NCBI GenBank assembly: GCA_000018565.1
Contig: CP000875.1
Span: forward strand, 4,355,199 to 4,419,198
DNA: 64,000 nt
Source of the DNA: Herpetosiphon aurantiacus DSM 785
GTDB taxonomy: Bacteria > Chloroflexota > Chloroflexia > Chloroflexales > Herpetosiphonaceae
Direction of reading: 5' to 3'
The translations under genes and the position numbers were made by a program. Position 1 is the stretch's first letter. Every line of letters starts with the position of its first letter. This document shows positions 10,678 through 64,000 of this stretch, one piece after another. Below the pieces are notes generated by a model. It was not told the DNA's origin, ran no database searches, and was given only the letters and a program-made list of their open reading frames with translations.

Positions 10678-11616
10678 ATGGAACATTTGGATACAGATTG
10701 GCGCGTGGTGGTTATTGGTGGCGCAGGGCTGGATATCAAAGGGCGTTTGCTTGAGCCATTGATTGAAAAAACCTCGAATCCAGGCCGTTTAACAATTAGT
10801 GTTGGCGGAGTTGCCCGCAACATTGCTGAAAATTTGGCTCGCTTGGGCGCACAAAGCAGCCTGATTGCCGCGGTAGGCAACGATGAATTTGGGCGCTTAA
10901 TCATCCAACAAACTGAAGATGCTGGTGTTGATACCGATGCCATGATGATTTTAGAGGATCAACATTCGGCAGCCTATTTGGCGCTGCTCGATCGCAATGG
11001 CTTGTTGTATACGGCGCTCGATGATAGCCACTGTGCGCGGGCATTAACGCCCGATTATATTTACGATAACGTGCAGCTATTGCGGGCAGCCGATGCAGTC
11101 TTTATTGATGCCAATTTGGCACGGGCAACTGCCGATGTGATTTTGCAAATTTGTGCCGAAGAAGATATTCCAGTCTGTTTCGAGCCTGTGGCCTATGGTT
11201 TAGCAGGTCGCTACCGTGATCGTTTGCGTGGGATGTATTTGATTACGCCCAACGAGCGTGAGGCCGAAGCATTAACTGGCTTGCCGGTGACCTCGCCTGC
11301 CGAGGCGACAGCAGCGGCCAAAGAATTAGTGCGGCTTGGCGTGGAAATTGCGATTATTACTTTAGCCCGTGAAGGCCTCGTCTATGCCACCGCCGATGGT
11401 CATGGCCATATTCCAACCTTGGTGCGCGATGTTGTCGATGCCACTGGAGCAGGCGATGCCTTGGCCGCAGCCGTCTTATTTGGCCTAATGAATGAGTTGA
11501 CCTTGGATGAAGCTGTGCGCTTGGGAGCAAGTGCCGCCGCATTAACCGTGGCCTCACCCGACACCGTGCGCCGCGATTTGAGCCTAGAGAGTTTGTACGC
11601 CCAGTTGTTAATCTGA
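10678..11616 (+). CDS. PfkB-family kinase, most like pseudouridine kinase
   Basis: This 312-residue ribokinase-type protein has both family signatures: GGVARNIAENLARLGAQ and GNDEFG near residues 42-68, and DATGAGDALAA near the C-terminus, where Asp260 is the expected catalytic base. The GGVARNIAENLARLG form is characteristic of PsuK/YeiC pseudouridine kinases. ITPNEREAEALTG also fits that group. No pseudouridine-5'-phosphate glycosidase (psuG), the usual partner, is present nearby, so substrate assignment is tentative and another nucleoside or sugar is possible. GAGGGAG precedes the start. It sits 25 bp after the SPFH gene. Confidence 0.8.
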   Translation: MEHLDTDWRVVVIGGAGLDIKGRLLEPLIEKTSNPGRLTISVGGVARNIAENLARLGAQSSLIAAVGNDEFGRLIIQQTEDAGVDTDAMMILEDQHSAAYLALLDRNGLLYTALDDSHCARALTPDYIYDNVQLLRAADAVFIDANLARATADVILQICAEEDIPVCFEPVAYGLAGRYRDRLRGMYLITPNEREAEALTGLPVTSPAEATAAAKELVRLGVEIAIITLAREGLVYATADGHGHIPTLVRDVVDATGAGDALAAAVLFGLMNELTLDEAVRLGASAAALTVASPDTVRRDLSLESLYAQLLI

Positions 11617-11653
11617 GCCTAGTATTTTTGCTAGGTGCTGCCTTGGGAACAGT

Positions 11654-12892
11654 ATGCCTGAACGTATTCTCGTTGCTGACGATAACGAAGCCCTAAGCCA
11701 ATTGCTTGAACTGATTTTAGTTGAGCATGGGTATGAGGTTACTCTTGCCAACGATGGCGGCGACCTGTTAGCCAAGGCCCAACTGCAAATTCCCGATTTG
11801 ATGATTGTTGATATTTTGATGCCGCGCATCGATGGCTATGAGGCGATTCGCCAATTGCGCAACGATACACGGCTGGCCCATATTCCAATTATTGTGCTCA
11901 CTGCGCGTACCGCGATTGAGGATGTGGTGACTGGCTTTGAATTGGGCGCTGATGATTATATCGTCAAGCCGTTTCAAATGCCTGAACTGCTGGCCCGTGT
12001 TCGCGCCCAATTGTTGCGAGCAACCCGCCGCCCTGTGCTCAACCCACTGACTGGCTTGCCCGGCAATATTTTGATCGAAGAAGAAGTTAACCATCGCTTG
12101 CGCCAGCAACAAGCCTTTGCTTTGTTGTACCTCGATTTGGATAATTTCAAAGCCTATAACGATAGCTATGGCTTTGCCCGTGGCGATTTGGTGATCAAGC
12201 TGTTGGCCACAATTTTGACGGAAATCAAGGCTGAATACAACGATGAAGGGCTATTTATTGGCCATATTGGCGGCGATGATTTTGCCCTGATTATGGCATC
12301 GGAACATGTCAATGCCCTCTGCGAAGATTTGATTCGGCGCTTTGATCAGCGGATTTTGACCTTGTACGATCCCAATAGTAGCAACAAACCTGTGCCGATC
12401 CAGACGCTCTCGGTTGGCGTGGTGCTGCATCGTGAAGATATGCAACAAACCTATCACGACCTAAGTCGCACCGCTGCCGAGATGAAGCGGGTTGCCAAAC
12501 AACAAACTGGCAGCGTCTATGTGGTTGATCGGCGTGCGCAAAAACAGACGATTGAGCAAGATCGGCGCAAACGTGGCCCAACAATTGGGGTTATCGCCCA
12601 AGATGTTGGCTTAGTCGATATGCTGAGCGATTTGCTCCAACAACAATCATTATTTGTAATCGAGGCCGATAGTGAAATTATGCCCGATGCTTTGGTGTTG
12701 GGCTATCGCGATGTCTTGCCGCATGTGCCCGAACGTTGGCAGAGCTTGCCACAAATTACCCTAAAACTTAATCAATCAAGCTATGAACAAGGTTTTGCCC
12801 AGCTTCAAATTCAGACTGGTTTGAAGCCGACCATTCCTATTCACGAGTATCTTTCGTTGGCTTTGCACTTGGTGCGGCTGGAGGCTCGATGA
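11654..12892 (+). CDS. Response regulator: receiver, GGDEF-like domain and possible pseudo-receiver
   Basis: Residues 1-120 are a CheY-like receiver with the acidic pair at 9-10, phospho-acceptor Asp53 (MIVDILMPRIDG) and Lys105 (DDYIVKPF). Residues 128-285 form a GGDEF-type domain beginning NPLTGLPG and containing DLDNFKAYND and GGDDF (206-210). The canonical Glu at the fourth position is Asp, so cyclic-di-GMP synthesis is uncertain. The last 110 residues (from GPTIGVIAQDVGLVDMLSDL) alternate hydrophobic strands and helices like a degenerate second receiver. The stop overlaps the next start by 4 bp (ATGA), so the TPR protein is translationally coupled. No histidine kinase is adjacent. Confidence 0.85.
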   Translation: MPERILVADDNEALSQLLELILVEHGYEVTLANDGGDLLAKAQLQIPDLMIVDILMPRIDGYEAIRQLRNDTRLAHIPIIVLTARTAIEDVVTGFELGADDYIVKPFQMPELLARVRAQLLRATRRPVLNPLTGLPGNILIEEEVNHRLRQQQAFALLYLDLDNFKAYNDSYGFARGDLVIKLLATILTEIKAEYNDEGLFIGHIGGDDFALIMASEHVNALCEDLIRRFDQRILTLYDPNSSNKPVPIQTLSVGVVLHREDMQQTYHDLSRTAAEMKRVAKQQTGSVYVVDRRAQKQTIEQDRRKRGPTIGVIAQDVGLVDMLSDLLQQQSLFVIEADSEIMPDALVLGYRDVLPHVPERWQSLPQITLKLNQSSYEQGFAQLQIQTGLKPTIPIHEYLSLALHLVRLEAR

Positions 12893-56304: not shown

Positions 56305-57474
56305 TTACTTGCGGCGTTCACGGTTGCGCAAGAATGGCGGAATATCTAAATCGTCGTTGCTACCAAACGAGGTTGGCGGGGTGGGCCGTTGTGGTTGTTG
56401 TGGTTGAGGTGCTGGCCGCACTGGTTGCTGGGTTGGTTGTTGGTAGCTGGTTGGTTGGCTCGTCGGTTGGCTTTGCGCCGATGGATATGAACGTGAGCGA
56501 TTGTTGCCTTGTGGTCGCGCTTGATCAAAGCCCGTCGCAATAATCGTGATTTTAACTTCATCAGCTGGCAGGTTGGGGTCAATCCGTGCCCCGAAAATAA
56601 TGTTGGCATCAGGATCAGCTGCCTTGGAAATAATCTCGGCAGCTTCGTTGACTTCCAACAAGCCCAAATCTTCACCACCAGTCACGTTGAACAGCACACC
56701 CTTAGCGCCATCAATCGAGATTTCGAGCAAGGGTGATGAGATCGCCATATTGGCAGCATCGATCATGCGATTATCGCCGATGCCATGGCCAATTGCCATC
56801 AAGGCTGTGCCCTGTTGCGACATAATTGTTTTTACGTCGGCAAAGTCGAGGTTAATCAACCCACGGCTGGTAATCAAATCGGAGATCCCTTGAATCCCTT
56901 GGCGCAGCACATCGTCGGCCATGCGGAAGGCTTCGTTCATTTTGGTGTTTTTCGAAGCAATTTGCAGCAAACGATCATTTGGCACCACAATCAAGGCATC
57001 AACGCTTGGCTTGAGTTGGTCAATTCCCGATTCGGCAACTTTGCGGCGATGGTTGCCTTCAAACAAGAAGGGTCGTGTCACCACACCAACCGTCAAAGCG
57101 CCAATTTCTTGGGCAATCGAAGCAATCACGGGCGAAGCACCCGTGCCAGTACCACCACCCATGCCAGCAGTGATGAAAACCATATCCGAGCCACGCAACA
57201 CATCGTGCAGCTCATCATGGGTTTCTTCGGCGGCTTTTTGACCAATTACGGGATTACCACCTGAGCCAAGTCCGCGCGTCAGTTTATCGCCAATCCGCAC
57301 GCGAATCGTGGCAGGTGAGTGAATCAGGGCTTGAGCATCGGTGTTGACGGTGATAAATTCGACCCCTTGCAGGCCTGATTCGACCATGCGATCAACCGCA
57401 TTCGAGCCGCCACCACCAACCCCAATCACCTTGATTTGGGCGAAATTTTCAATTAAGTTACTATTGAAATCCAT
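56305..57474 (-). CDS. ftsZ: Cell division GTPase FtsZ
   Basis: The 389-residue tubulin-like protein has [10 protein letters not shown], the GGGTGTG loop at 106-112 and the T7 synergy loop NLDFADV at 208-214. A Gln-Pro-Ser linker (about 320-370) leads to the C-terminal anchor peptide [16 protein letters not shown], which binds FtsA. GGAGG precedes the start. It polymerises into the division ring. It is the last gene of the dcw cluster, 70 bp after ftsA; no clear terminator follows, and the dppA promoter lies about 140 bp further on. Confidence 0.98.
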
Positions 57475-57544: not shown

Positions 57545-58792
57545 TTACGGTAAAAATTCCCGTAACCACATTTTGAAGCGGTCGTAGGTTTGTTTCCAGT
57601 TGGTCGTTGCTGGTTGGCTCGCAGCATGGCCGCCAACGCTGCCCATTCCATGACGCAAGCCCCAACGGACAAGCCCCACAGCCGTGGCATAGGGTGGTGC
57701 ATCTATTGCTTCAGCTAATCCAGTCAAATTCGTTGGAATGCCAATGCGCACTGGCATTCCTAAAAGTTGGCGTGCCATCTCATCTAAGCCAGGCAATTGA
57801 GCCGAGCCACCTGTCAGGACAATCCCCGCAGGCAGTAGGCCTTCATAGCCAGAACGACGGATTTCATTGCCAATCATGTCGATTAGTTGTTCGGCTCGCG
57901 CTTGCAGAATTTCATTCAATTCAACTCGCGAGACTTGTTGATGTTCGCCTGGCGAAAAGCCATCGGTATCGATCAGATCATCAGCAGGGTCATGGCTGTC
58001 GATATCGGTTACTTTGCCATAGCGCAATTTGAGATATTCGGCGGTGTTATGCGGTGTATGCAGCACATAAACCAAATCGTTGGTAAAATGTGCTCCGCCA
58101 ATTGGCAACACCACGGTGTGCCAAATGCCACCACCAATAAAAATCGCAATGTCGGTTGTGCCGCCACCAATATCAACCAGCACAACCCCACGGCTTTTAT
58201 CTTCTTCGCTCAGCACCGCCTCGCCTGAAGCCAAGGGTTGCAGCACCAGGTCGTCGATGCCGACCCCCGCCCGTTCAACGCTCTTGATTAAGTTTTGAAT
58301 CGCCATTACCTCGCCAGTAACGATATGCGTTTCAACTTCAAGCCGATAGCCTGCCATACCCACTGGGTCGCGAATACCCTCATGGCCATCAACGATATAG
58401 GCCCGTGGAATCACATGGATCACTTCACGTTGGGTTGGGATGGCAATCGCTTGGGCGGCTTCGACAGCGCGGGCAACGTCTGTGCGCGAAATTTCATGAT
58501 CAGGCCGTGAGATGGCGACCACCCCACGACTATTAACTGAGGAAATATGGCGGCCCGCAATCCCGACAAAGGCAGTTCCAATCCGATAACCCGAAAGCCG
58601 CTCGGCCTTTTCAACCGAGGTCGCAATCGCGCTAACCGCCTCGTCGATATTGACCACGACCCCACGGTCGAGACCCTTGGAAGGAGTGAGGCCAACCCCT
58701 AAAATATTCACTTTGCCTGTATCGTGAACTTCAGCAACCAAAGTACATATTTTGGTTGTACCGACATCAATACCGACAATGGTGCGATTCAT
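57545..58792 (-). CDS. ftsA: Cell division protein FtsA
   Basis: The 415-residue actin-like ATPase has phosphate-1 VGIDVGTTKICTL, the 1C subdomain (RGVVVNIDEAVSAIATSVEK), phosphate-2 VLVDIGGGTTDIAIF and the adenosine motif IVLTGGSAQLPGLDE. The C-terminus ends FKMWLREFLP, an amphipathic membrane-targeting helix. It anchors FtsZ filaments to the membrane. The promoter at 58847-58875 should drive ftsA and ftsZ independently of the genes upstream. GGGG lies just before the start codon. Confidence 0.97.
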   Translation of the reverse strand: MNRTIVGIDVGTTKICTLVAEVHDTGKVNILGVGLTPSKGLDRGVVVNIDEAVSAIATSVEKAERLSGYRIGTAFVGIAGRHISSVNSRGVVAISRPDHEISRTDVARAVEAAQAIAIPTQREVIHVIPRAYIVDGHEGIRDPVGMAGYRLEVETHIVTGEVMAIQNLIKSVERAGVGIDDLVLQPLASGEAVLSEEDKSRGVVLVDIGGGTTDIAIFIGGGIWHTVVLPIGGAHFTNDLVYVLHTPHNTAEYLKLRYGKVTDIDSHDPADDLIDTDGFSPGEHQQVSRVELNEILQARAEQLIDMIGNEIRRSGYEGLLPAGIVLTGGSAQLPGLDEMARQLLGMPVRIGIPTNLTGLAEAIDAPPYATAVGLVRWGLRHGMGSVGGHAASQPATTNWKQTYDRFKMWLREFLP

Positions 58793-59045: not shown

Positions 59046-59372
59046 CTAGCCAACCAGGTGTTGTCGAATGCGACTGGCATTTTCAAACAAACGGACACCA
59101 AAGGCCACCACTGCCGCCAAATAGAGGTCAATGCCTAGCCGCTCACCAAGAAACGCCAGCACAACCGCCAATACAGTGTTGCCAATTAATCCCGAAATAA
59201 AAATCCGATTCCGATAGCGTTTTTCGATTGTTGCTCGCGTTGCCCCAACAATCGAATCAAGCGCTGATAAAACTGCCACCGCTGTATAACGGGCAAATTG
59301 CGAGGGGATTGTCAGACCGGAAACAAGTCCAATCGCCACCCCGACTCCCAGCCCCGCCAGCGGAATCCACAT
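59046..59372 (-). CDS. sbp: Small basic protein of the division cluster (DUF1290)
   Basis: The start at 59372 is chosen because the family begins MWIPLAGLGVGVAIGLVSG; the frame continues upstream but that part lies over the end of ftsQ. The 108 residues contain three membrane helices (1-22, 28-45, 60-105 region) and the conserved block IPSQFARYTAVAVLSALDSI with VGATRATIEKRYRNRIFISG. The same small basic protein stands between divIB/ftsQ and ftsA in Firmicutes and other Gram-positive lineages; its role is not established. It lies 29 bp after ftsQ and is followed by the ftsA promoter region. Confidence 0.85.
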   Translation of the reverse strand: MWIPLAGLGVGVAIGLVSGLTIPSQFARYTAVAVLSALDSIVGATRATIEKRYRNRIFISGLIGNTVLAVVLAFLGERLGIDLYLAAVVAFGVRLFENASRIRQHLVG

Positions 59373-59401
59373 AGCTTGTCGCTGCTCCACGCATGTGCTC
59401 C

Positions 59402-60250
59402 TTATTGCGACCCTGCCGTTGGCGTTGGAGTCGCCTGCGGTCGATAGTAGGGTTTTTCCGGTCGTAAATCGATAAATGTCCATACAGTGTTACTTGCTTG
59501 AACTTGTTGCAACGTTGCAAGTTTCAAATCAAGGCTCACCTGCTGTTCAGCCAACCGCCCAAATACCGCTTGATTGGTATCATTGTAAACCGAAAGCCCA
59601 TAGTATGGGTCCCATTCGTAGCGCGTCGGTTGCCAACCAAGCTCTTTGGGAATGCGCAAATAGAGCGTTTGAGCCAAATTCAGCGCATCCGTGTCAATAT
59701 AGCTCCCCGCCGAAATCGGAATCGTGCGGGTATCGTAAATCACTAAGGTTGCCGTCGTAATCGACGTAGCTAAGCCTAACACTTCGCCACCCGCCGTCAC
59801 TTCGTAATTTGTACCACCCATATTCCAAACCACGGCGGCCTGACGCTCTTGCACCCGCACCAATACGCGGGCGGGAATCCGCAACTGCACGCTGGCGGTG
59901 GACACATAGGGGTTTTGGCTAATTCGCGCGGCCACTTCCGCCGGATCAATATCCCAAATCGAGATGCCTTGCAGATTGGCTAATTGGCTAATCGTGGCAG
60001 CATTAACCGAGCGATTGCCCTCGATCTCCAATTCGCCAACCACAAAGGCTGGCGAACGAAAGACCACAATCAAACAGCCAATACCGACCAACAACAACAC
60101 CAACGCCGCTAATTTGCCATTTAAGAGCATGCTGCGCAGAATGGTTCGTGCCGTTGGGCGCACCATCGGCGTGGTGGTACGCACGCCCAGCGGCGCACGC
60201 CCACGCGGTTTGCGGCTAATCAAGCGGCTTGTGCGACGTGGATTACTCAT
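59402..60250 (-). CDS. ftsQ: Cell division protein FtsQ/DivIB
   Basis: A very basic cytoplasmic N-terminus ([18 protein letters not shown]) precedes one membrane helix (about 48-67, [18 protein letters not shown]). A POTRA domain follows: [20 protein letters not shown], then [20 protein letters not shown] with [20 protein letters not shown]. The C-terminal FtsQ domain ends in a Tyr-Arg-Pro-Gln stretch with Thr-Pro. The 282-residue length is normal. It links FtsA/FtsZ to septal wall synthesis. The start overlaps the end of ddl by 4 bp. Confidence 0.93.
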
Positions 60251-61332
60251 CGGCCTCGCTCGTGATAACGCTCAATCGCCAAATCGATCAGCCGATCGAG
60301 TAATTCGCTATAGCCAAGGCCCGTAGCTTCCCACAATTTGGGATATTGGCTCATCGCCGTAAAGCCAGGGAAGGTATTAATTTCGTTGATATAGATCGCG
60401 CCAGTTTCGCGCTCGACAAAGAAATCGACCCGCGCCAAGCCAGCCCCGTCAATCGCTTTGAAGGCGGTAACTGCCATCTCGCGCAGCTGTTCGCTGGTCG
60501 CAGCATCAAGCTCCGCCGGAATTGCAAATTGGGTTTGGCCTTCAAGGTATTTATCGGCATAGTCGTAAAAATCGTTGGCAGGCAGCACTTCGCCTGGCAC
60601 TGAGGGCTTGGGATCGTCGTTGCCCAAAATTGCGACTTCAATTTCACGGGCATTGATGCCTTGCTCGACTACAATTCGCCGATCATAACCAGCGGCCTCG
60701 GCCATGCCAGTCGCCAATTCAGCTCGATTGCTGACTTTGCTAATACCAACGCTGCTACCTAAGTTGGCGGGCTTAACAAACATTGGATAGTGCAACGTAG
60801 CCTCAAGCCGCTCGTAGACAGCTTCGGGCTGGGTTTGCCAATCACGGCGCAAAACCAACTGCCAGGGCACTTGGGGCAAACCAGCGGCGGCAAAAGCCGA
60901 TTTCATCAAGCCTTTATCCATCCCAACTGAAGCCGCCAAAACTCCACAGCCAACATAGGGCAGATTGGCGAACTCAAACACCCCTTGAATCGTGCCATCC
61001 TCGCCAAATGGGCCATGCAAGACTGGAATAATCACATCCAAAGCCGCAACGTTGGTTTGTTCGGGCAAACTGCCAGCACTTTGCACAATCGCTGTTTCGC
61101 TGACGACACCAGCTTGCGGTGTACGGCCAAGCATCTTTTGGTCGGCCTGTTGCTCCAAGGCCAACAACGGATCACCGCCGCTGAGCCATTGGCCATTACG
61201 GGTGATTCCAATCGGAATCACGGTATATTTTTCAGGATCAAGCGCATTCATCACGGCCCGCGCCGATTTCAACGACACTTCGTGCTCGCCCGATTTCCCG
61301 CCAAAAACAATTCCAACCCGCCGTTTTGTCAT
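60247..61332 (-). CDS. ddl: D-alanine--D-alanine ligase
   Basis: The 361-residue ATP-grasp enzyme has [19 protein letters not shown], the glycine-rich [55 protein letters not shown] and [20 protein letters not shown]. This is the Ddl signature set and does not show the lactate-ligase substitutions that I can recognise. It makes the dipeptide end of the peptidoglycan precursor. The gene overlaps both ftsQ and murB by 4 bp, giving tight translational coupling. Confidence 0.96.
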
Positions 61333-62237
61333 AACGATTGATCCTCACTGGTGATCACGCGAACTTCTAATTCGAGTTCGATACCAAATTGTTTGAGCAC
61401 TTCGGTTTGGGCATATTCGGCCACCCGCAAAATATCGTTAGCCGTCGCCCCGCCCAAATTCAAGATATAGTTGGCATGTTTTTCGGCAATTTGGGCCGCG
61501 CCCATGCGAAAGCCTTTCAAGCCAGCAGCATCGATCAAACGGCCAGCCGTGGTATTGGCAGGGTTTTTAAACACCGAGCCACACGACGAGCCAGCGGGCG
61601 TGCGTTGCTTACGACCTTCGGCAATCTCAGCCATTTTGCTGGCGATCCACACTGGGTCATCGCGCCAAGCAGTCAACACGGCATCAAGCACATATGGAAT
61701 GCGCGTGGTTGGGCGATTGCCTGCCAGTCGTTTGAGTTGGCTGGTGCGATAGTCGAATTGAAAATCAGCCGCCGCCCACTCGACAATCTGGTTATCGGGC
61801 ATTAATAAACGGGCCGATTGCAGATGTTTGACAGTTTCGCCACCATAACAACCAGCATTACCATAAATTGCCCCGCCGATTGTGCCGGGCAAACCTTCGG
61901 CCCATTCGAGGCCCGCAATGCCTTGAGCCGCCAAGCGCCGCACTGTGCCAGCAGTTGGTGCACCAGCCTGCACATGAATCGTCAATTGATCGCCATGTTC
62001 ATGCAATTCAAAGCCAGTCGCGCGGTTGCGAATCACCAAGCCATTCCAGCCTGCATCGCTCATCAGCAAATTCGAGCCGCCGCCCAGCATAAAAATTGGC
62101 AACTGCCGAAGTTCAGCCCATTGCACCGCCTCAACCTGTTGCTCAGGGCTGGTAACGTTTACAAAATACCGCGCAGGGCCACCAATGCGCCAAGCTGTGT
62201 AGGGCGCGAGTAGCTCATGTTCGCGAAGATCGATCAT
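61329..62237 (-). CDS. murB: UDP-N-acetylenolpyruvoylglucosamine reductase
   Basis: The 302-residue flavoprotein has the FAD-binding [14 protein letters not shown] and [20 protein letters not shown], the [20 protein letters not shown] block, and the catalytic serine in [20 protein letters not shown], with C-terminal Glu in a [11 protein letters not shown] end. It is a type II MurB (no long insert). It reduces enolpyruvyl-UDP-GlcNAc to UDP-MurNAc. Its start lies 2 bp after the stop of the TPR gene (TAAGCATG), and its stop overlaps ddl. Confidence 0.96.
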
Positions 62238-62239
62238 GC

Positions 62240-63520
62240 TTAAACCTGTATTCCTATAGTTCGCAAGCGTTCACGCAAGCGTTTTTGTTCATCGTAATGG
62301 CCAAGACCTTGGCGCAATAAAAAGGCCGTATGCCAATGCTTGGCCGCATCATGGCGATCATTCCACTCATAGGCCAAATCGCCCAAACGCTCGCTGGCCA
62401 AGGCAATCCCGACTGTATCGCCCAATTGTTGGGCATTAGTCAGGGCAATATTGTAGTTGGTGCTGGCCGAGCCATAATCAGCTTGCGCCCGATAGGCATC
62501 GCCCAAGCGATTGTGCAGCATAATCTGGCCAACTCCAGGCGTGCGCCGATCCTCATATTGCAAGGCTTTGAGCAACGACTCAATCGCCGTTTGATAATCG
62601 CCGCGGGCATGGTGAATCACCCCAAGCACGGTGTAGGCGCGGGCGGTGCCAACCGCATCGTTTAATTTTTCGCGCAGCATCAGGCTTTCAGCTTGGCAAC
62701 GCAGCGCTTGATCCAAATCGTTTAATTCGAGATACGAAAGCGCCAATTTTTCATGAACAATCGCCACGCCCAACGTGCCAGGCAGATGTTCCTCGATTTC
62801 TAAGGCGCGTGAGTAGTAATCGGCTGCTTGTTGGCCGGAACCAATCAACCGATACACATCACCAATGCTTGTGATAATTTTAGCGATTGTTAGCCGATCG
62901 TCAATCACCGCTCCGCGTGCTTGTGCGGCGTTATAGAGGTGAATTGCTGCGGTATGGTGGCCTTGGAGTTGCTCAGTTTTACCAAGATGCAACAAAGCTT
63001 CGGCCTCAAGCGGCACATTGTTGGTAGTTCGAGCCAAATCGAGCGCCCGTTTTAATGTTTGCTCGGCGCTGCTATAATCGCGGATTGCTCGTTGCGAACG
63101 CCCCAAGGCCACCAACGAACCACCCTCAATTTGCACCGATTGCGCGGCGCGGGCTAAGGTCAACAATTGCTGAGCGTAAAACAAGGCATCATCGTGATTG
63201 CCCGCCCAATCCAGCACCGTCCAAGCCAAGCTGTAGGCCCGAATCGCAAAATTAGCGCGTTGCTCCTCGGCCAAACGGTTCAGATATTCCAAGGCCCGTT
63301 CACACCAAACTCGCGCATCAGCAATATTATGTTGAGCAATCACCGTTTCTGCTTGATCAAGCGCAGCCGTAATTGCGGCGGGCCATTCACAGGCCAATGC
63401 TAAATGCCATGCCATAATTCCATCCAAACCTTCAGGCCGCCCTGTCTGTTCAGCGTAGAGTTGACGCAAGCGCTCTGCCGCATCACGATGAAATTGGCGA
63501 TAGGCAGCATCAGCAATCAT
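62240..63520 (-). CDS. TPR protein embedded between murC and murB
   Basis: The 426-residue protein is almost wholly TPR/SNAP-like helices: IEGGSLVALGRSQRAIRDYS, LEAEALLHLGKTEQLQGHHT, TIAKIITSIGDVYRLIGSGQ, VAIVHEKLALSYLELNDLDQ and TARAYTVLGVIHHARGDYQT. The N-terminal 90 residues (DAAYRQFHRDAAERLRQLYA; WHLALACEWPAAITAALDQA) resemble the arm after the NTPase of LAL/AfsR-type regulators, but no NTPase or DNA-binding domain is present. There is no signal peptide. It starts 4 bp after murC and ends 2 bp before murB, so it is a built-in part of the operon. It may be a cytoplasmic scaffold for Mur enzymes; this is inference. Confidence 0.88.
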   Translation of the reverse strand: MIADAAYRQFHRDAAERLRQLYAEQTGRPEGLDGIMAWHLALACEWPAAITAALDQAETVIAQHNIADARVWCERALEYLNRLAEEQRANFAIRAYSLAWTVLDWAGNHDDALFYAQQLLTLARAAQSVQIEGGSLVALGRSQRAIRDYSSAEQTLKRALDLARTTNNVPLEAEALLHLGKTEQLQGHHTAAIHLYNAAQARGAVIDDRLTIAKIITSIGDVYRLIGSGQQAADYYSRALEIEEHLPGTLGVAIVHEKLALSYLELNDLDQALRCQAESLMLREKLNDAVGTARAYTVLGVIHHARGDYQTAIESLLKALQYEDRRTPGVGQIMLHNRLGDAYRAQADYGSASTNYNIALTNAQQLGDTVGIALASERLGDLAYEWNDRHDAAKHWHTAFLLRQGLGHYDEQKRLRERLRTIGIQV

Positions 63521-63524
63521 CGAA

Positions 63525-64000
63525 TCACCTCAGCGCCGCCACCAACCGCTCGCCAACCACAACCCCATCGCCAGCTCCCAAGGTCAGCACCACATCGCCA
63601 GCCTGCACATCGCGCAGCAATTGCTCAAACGCTTGGTCTAAATCGCCGACTGCCAAGGCATTGGGATGTTGCATGCCAGCCACGATTTGAGCGGTTGGGT
63701 CGCCCTTGCTGGTTTCGCGTGCCCCATACACCGCGCCAATTCGCACCAGATCCGCCTGCTCAAAAGCAGTTTGAAAATCAGCTAGAAACGCTTCCAAGCG
63801 GCTAAAGGTATGTGGCTGAAAATAGGCCACAATTCGTTGCGCTGGAAAGCGCTTGCGAGCTGCCGCCAAGGTCGCACGAATTTCCACCGGATGATGTGCA
63901 TAATCGTCGAATACGCGTACAGCACCAACTTGACCTTTTGGCTCGAAGCGTCGCGCTGCCCCTTGATAGTGGGCAATCGCTGCCACCGCTACCGCTAAAT
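63525..64000 (-). CDS. murC: UDP-N-acetylmuramate--L-alanine ligase, C-terminal part (cut by window)
   Basis: The frame is open through the window edge, so only about 158 C-terminal residues are visible. They include ARRFEPKGQVGAVRVFDDYA followed by HHPVEI, the MurC-specific DDYAHHP motif, AYFQPHTFSRLEAFLADF, and the final LTLGAGDGVVVGERLVAAL. These belong to the central ATPase/C-terminal binding domains of the Mur ligases. The enzyme adds L-alanine to UDP-MurNAc. The stop lies 4 bp before the embedded TPR gene. Confidence 0.95.
   Translation of the reverse strand, partial: LAVAVAAIAHYQGAARRFEPKGQVGAVRVFDDYAHHPVEIRATLAAARKRFPAQRIVAYFQPHTFSRLEAFLADFQTAFEQADLVRIGAVYGARETSKGDPTAQIVAGMQHPNALAVGDLDQAFEQLLRDVQAGDVVLTLGAGDGVVVGERLVAALR

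Follow-up and report, generated by a model that had tools for sequence, protein, structure and literature searches.

Herpetosiphon aurantiacus is a predatory filamentous bacterium, part of whose dcw cluster lies on the minus strand of the window (the whole stretch of DNA analyzed here, 64,000 nucleotides of the DSM 785 genome). The genes read, in order, murC (63525..64000; the 3' part, matched by TIGR01082, with the rest beyond the window and the full gene in locus L039), a gene for a TPR solenoid protein of 426 residues (62240..63520), murB (61329..62237), ddl (60247..61332), ftsQ (59402..60250; POTRA_1 domain), sbp (DUF1290; longest frame 59046..59483), ftsA (57545..58792) and ftsZ (56305..57474). 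This is the order given in a preliminary description of the locus, and it was confirmed with Pfam and NCBIfam models for MurC, MurB, Ddl, FtsQ and Sbp (both for murB and ddl; Pfam for ftsQ and sbp) and, for ftsA and ftsZ, from ORF translations and synteny. The true start of sbp may be downstream of its overlap with ftsQ.

Upstream of the window the cluster goes on with genes for a CvpA-like membrane protein, murG, ftsW, a rhomboid-family protein, murD, mraY and murF. The rhomboid-family protein (319 aa; PF01694, E 4e-36) is encoded between murD and ftsW at L039 14510-15469, corresponding to 68311-69270 in window numbering and hence outside the window, and tblastn places such a gene at the murD-ftsW position in almost every locus read from the order. 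The CvpA-like gene is situated between murG and murC (L039 about 11375-12004; its PF02674 match is weak and below the cut-off) and occurs at this position in the Herpetosiphonaceae and in several genomes of family f4. The cluster varies in other ways across the order: four loci of genus g6 in group f3 (L114-L117; genomes G134, G438, G439 and G441) encode two tandem ftsZ and a divergent ftsA (45-47% identity), and all of them except L116 have two tandem MraY-like matches; between murB and ftsQ, where most of the other genomes read give a ddl match, four further loci (L043, L113, L120, L121) give none.

The TPR gene is closely packed between its neighbors. Its ATG start codon is 4 bp from the murC stop, and its own stop is followed after 2 bp by the murB ATG; because the reading frame upstream of the ATG is open for just three codons, the start is nearly fixed. 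The preliminary description had reported these two gaps, the 426-residue product and a junction free of repeat debris, all of which our ORF and Pfam analyses and an empty search for flanking repeats or insertion scars bear out. Promoter-like and terminator-like sites around the gene are as numerous as expected by chance, and together with the spacing this favors a predicted co-transcription with murC and murB. The spacing likewise suggests that the three genes are co-translated, a suggestion strengthened by a relative (G070) in which the murC-TPR and TPR-murB junctions are both -4 overlaps. Since the ORF belongs to a conserved family, it is a real gene and not a chance reading frame.

The product is a bona fide TPR protein: it scores 96.4 bits against TPR_12 (cut-off 30.1) and 66.3 bits against the MalT-type model TPR_MalT (cut-off 45), and TPR_1 also matches above its cut-off (69.7 bits). 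An AlphaFold model built with 20 homologues (mean pLDDT 92.4, pTM 0.81) consists of 21 helices and no other elements, a confidently predicted all-helical solenoid. Two parts can be distinguished. An N-terminal arm (residues 1-105; 63206..63520, minus strand) contains the invariant residues H11, W38, H39, W72 and R94, and is followed by a TPR superhelix of about eight helix pairs (residues 109-421; 62258..63196, minus strand), delimited by the AlphaFold helices, conservation and Foldseek. The best Foldseek matches are the TPR domains of LGN/Pins (GPSM2), which have the same type of superhelix repeat, are also the top natural profile matches, and were solved with peptide partners (the entry titles name Inscuteable, NuMA and Frmpd4); the closest, 4wnd, has a TM-score of 0.84 by target length, and with about 20% identity this eukaryotic protein is a structural analogue rather than a family assignment. 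A search of a viral structure library with the model returned generic repeat proteins only.

The groove of the superhelix is unusually conserved. Groove positions average 3.31 bits and outer helix-B positions 2.35, and the concave-face positions 2, 5, 9, 12 and 13 of the repeat are more conserved than other non-structural positions (permutation p 0.00015). Residues R141, R144, K181, Q184, T217, D221, R224, R294 and D341 of the concave face are invariant in the alignment. Part of this pattern may reflect the TPR subtype and not a ligand; some subtypes favor these residues, so the conservation supports ligand binding in the groove and does not prove it.

The arm has its own likely origin. Searching the whole genome with a profile of the arm recovered just two matches besides the gene itself, both of them weak (E 0.08 and 0.14) and located just past the NTPase of STAND proteins, one with a cyclase-AAA_16-TPR architecture and the other a BTAD-AAA_16 (AfsR-like) protein. 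Single-sequence comparisons with STAND proteins are modest (E 0.001 and 0.0003), and the reverse search, from a STAND-arm profile against the genome, reached the TPR gene weakly (E 0.14). The match is strong when profile is set against profile: hhalign aligned the arm with a profile made from five STAND arms encoded in this genome, over 76 columns and with a probability of 96 (E 4.4e-9), while the control, a TPR segment of the same protein family, gave a probability of 7. Two of the five proteins in the profile were domain-scanned, and the other three were chosen by similarity to the first. The arm is thus homologous to the one that follows the NTPase in STAND regulators, and the TPR protein has, like the cyclase-AAA_16-TPR, BTAD/AfsR-like and LAL/MalT proteins, the order of helical arm and then TPRs. 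It differs from them in domain content: the 426 residues contain no Pfam match to an AAA_16 or NB-ARC NTPase and no HTH, BTAD or cyclase effector domain. Given the arm homology, descent from a STAND regulator by loss of the NTPase is the simplest reading. The preliminary description, noting a resemblance of the N-terminus to LAL/AfsR arms, had proposed descent from a regulator that lost its NTPase and DNA-binding domains; the arm homology speaks for this proposal, whereas the direction of the change, from regulator to stand-alone protein, is only inferred.

In MalT-like regulators, arms of this type bind a small ligand or peptide. The TPR protein could accordingly be a stand-alone sensor, its former STAND arm binding such a ligand and reporting the state of wall precursors to an enzyme or regulator. 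The arm homology, the above-threshold match to the MalT-like TPR family and the conserved groove with its charged positions, both basic and acidic, are consistent with this function. The protein has, however, neither a catalytic nor a DNA-binding domain, and a sensor would consequently need an output partner; we regard this function as unlikely.

Intact homologues of the TPR gene are present in 24 of 82 genomes of the order, with a broken copy in one more; they share 36-99% identity and are full length except for one at a contig end. Carriers comprise all nine Herpetosiphonaceae genomes, nine genomes of group f3 (including Roseiflexus) and six of group f2 (including Chloroflexaceae), the group names being those of a genome-contig search that found 20 loci, all of them in Herpetosiphonaceae, Roseiflexus, Chloroflexaceae, Chloroflexales or unplaced Chloroflexota assemblies. 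In every genome with both neighbors on the same piece (21 of 21, from three families), the gene is located exactly between murC and murB, a fixed cluster position across genera as expected of a dcw member. The remaining three are a copy cut by a contig end (G403), a locus at a contig end (L099) and a piece of a metagenome assembly without murC (L097, genome G408), on which murG, the TPR gene and murB were detected and murC and murD were not found. The gene is single-copy, with no second copy or other location in the carrier genomes.

Where the gene is missing, murC lies directly next to murB, the gap between them ranging from -8 to 421 bp. A search for a relocated gene in the genomes lacking a junction copy gave no match at E <= 1e-15, with the exception of a match confined to the TPRs (26% identity) in a 1146-aa frame of G402. 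No full-length homologue was found outside the order among 400 genomes of the phylum. In all 77 genomes outside the order with murC and murB on one contig, the two hits are 45-688 bp apart among the best-scoring matches listed, a spacing too short for the TPR gene. In this comparison of murC-murB junctions across the Chloroflexota, which the preliminary description had suggested, the gene is fixed at this place in 21 genomes of the order and absent from many relatives.

The history of the gene follows that of the cluster. When its tree is compared with one built from seven dcw proteins, 17 of 19 splits agree, and the TPR tree gives weak support to the two that conflict. A tree of the order rooted with six outgroup genomes (built by a quick method, with some long branches) sets the Herpetosiphonaceae and their sister family f4, which is without the gene, against the Roseiflexaceae and Chloroflexaceae. 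Because carriers are found on both sides of this tree, the simplest account would be a single gain in the ancestor of the order, before its radiation, followed by about six losses (a visual count on the rooted tree; without rooting, at least five changes are needed). Among close species the TPR gene has a dN/dS of 0.03-0.10, comparable to the values for MurC, MurB and Ddl and higher than those for FtsA and FtsZ.

These data bear on whether the gene is a recent insertion or a non-functional ORF. Its absence from many relatives would fit such an explanation, as would a copy in G347, found at the same place with its middle missing and out of frame; G347 is a metagenome-assembled genome, and the broken copy may be an assembly error. 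Against both, the gene is conserved in three families, with a tree congruent with that of its neighbors and low dN/dS, the rooted tree traces it back to the order's ancestor, and flanking repeats are absent. We consider this explanation very improbable, and recent insertion in particular to be ruled out by the distribution, tree congruence, dN/dS and rooted tree; the signs of recent insertion that, by the preliminary description, would speak against its idea did not appear. Vertical inheritance, purifying selection and a fixed place instead support the gene as a genuine and long-standing part of the dcw cluster. The earlier picture of a built-in member holds to that extent, but not for the many relatives in which the gene is missing. 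About six independent losses mean that the pathway does not require the gene and, as they occurred without visible change in the neighboring genes, that it is dispensable in the order.

Which partner the groove might hold was addressed in two ways. The tails of MurC, MurB, Ddl, FtsQ, FtsZ, FtsA and MurG, compared between carriers and non-carriers, contain no obvious motif that tracks the TPR gene. Distance-matrix coevolution, with just 11 genomes, gave small partial correlations, for Ddl (0.31), FtsW (0.29), MurC (0.26) and MurB (0.22). The whole dcw cluster is inherited together, so that synteny alone cannot prove a function for the gene. The protein could instead be a passenger, a TPR adaptor with a job elsewhere (for example, partnering a STAND regulator) and held in place by block inheritance of the cluster. 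TPR genes are very abundant in H. aurantiacus (135 genome-wide TPR_12 matches), and the repeated losses while murC and murB stay, like the lack of a partner motif in the tails, would fit such a role. A passenger would not be expected, on the other hand, to have remained unrelocated and unduplicated in every genome searched, nor to overlap its neighbors by 4 bp at several junctions, and we find this explanation doubtful.

We tentatively favor, at a probability of about 0.45, an accessory, soluble TPR adaptor of the dcw cluster that is ancestral to the order, is made together with MurC and MurB, and binds part of a partner protein. In such a scheme a STAND regulator would have had its sensor arm split from its NTPase, giving rise to a stand-alone TPR protein, whose groove would hold a short peptide or tail; the partner would most likely be a co-made protein, either a Mur enzyme or a member of the FtsQ/A/Z group, and the TPR protein would tether or tune wall-precursor synthesis in a non-essential manner. 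The narrower proposal of a scaffold or sensor for peptidoglycan precursors, derived from a STAND sensor arm, residing in the dcw operon of one order and repeatedly discarded, is in our view rather unlikely.

CpoB and LapB, likewise TPR proteins, couple or regulate the synthesis of the envelope. Both differ from the TPR protein in gene context and sequence, and the match to the LapB model is sub-threshold (21 bits versus 395). For the cytoplasmic Mur steps, one report on Bordetella pertussis describes MurG as a scaffold on which the Mur enzymes assemble (PMC6420597), and murG is found in the same cluster as the TPR gene. Unlike MurG, a glycosyltransferase, the TPR protein is a non-enzymatic solenoid and a separate gene product. 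Within the literature searched, no paper brings together the dcw cluster, murB and TPR.

What holds the cytoplasmic wall-precursor enzymes together, and whether they form a complex at all, is an open question in the field. The TPR gene is a member of the dcw cluster specific to this order that, by our reconstruction, has kept its place between murC and murB from the order's ancestor onwards, and it would illustrate how an arm of a signaling protein can end up as an independent operon component. If the adaptor reading is true, a non-enzymatic protein encoded between murC and murB, present in some close relatives and absent from others, would allow a direct test of the Mur complex. The TPR protein is a good candidate for a helper of wall synthesis that has so far gone unstudied.
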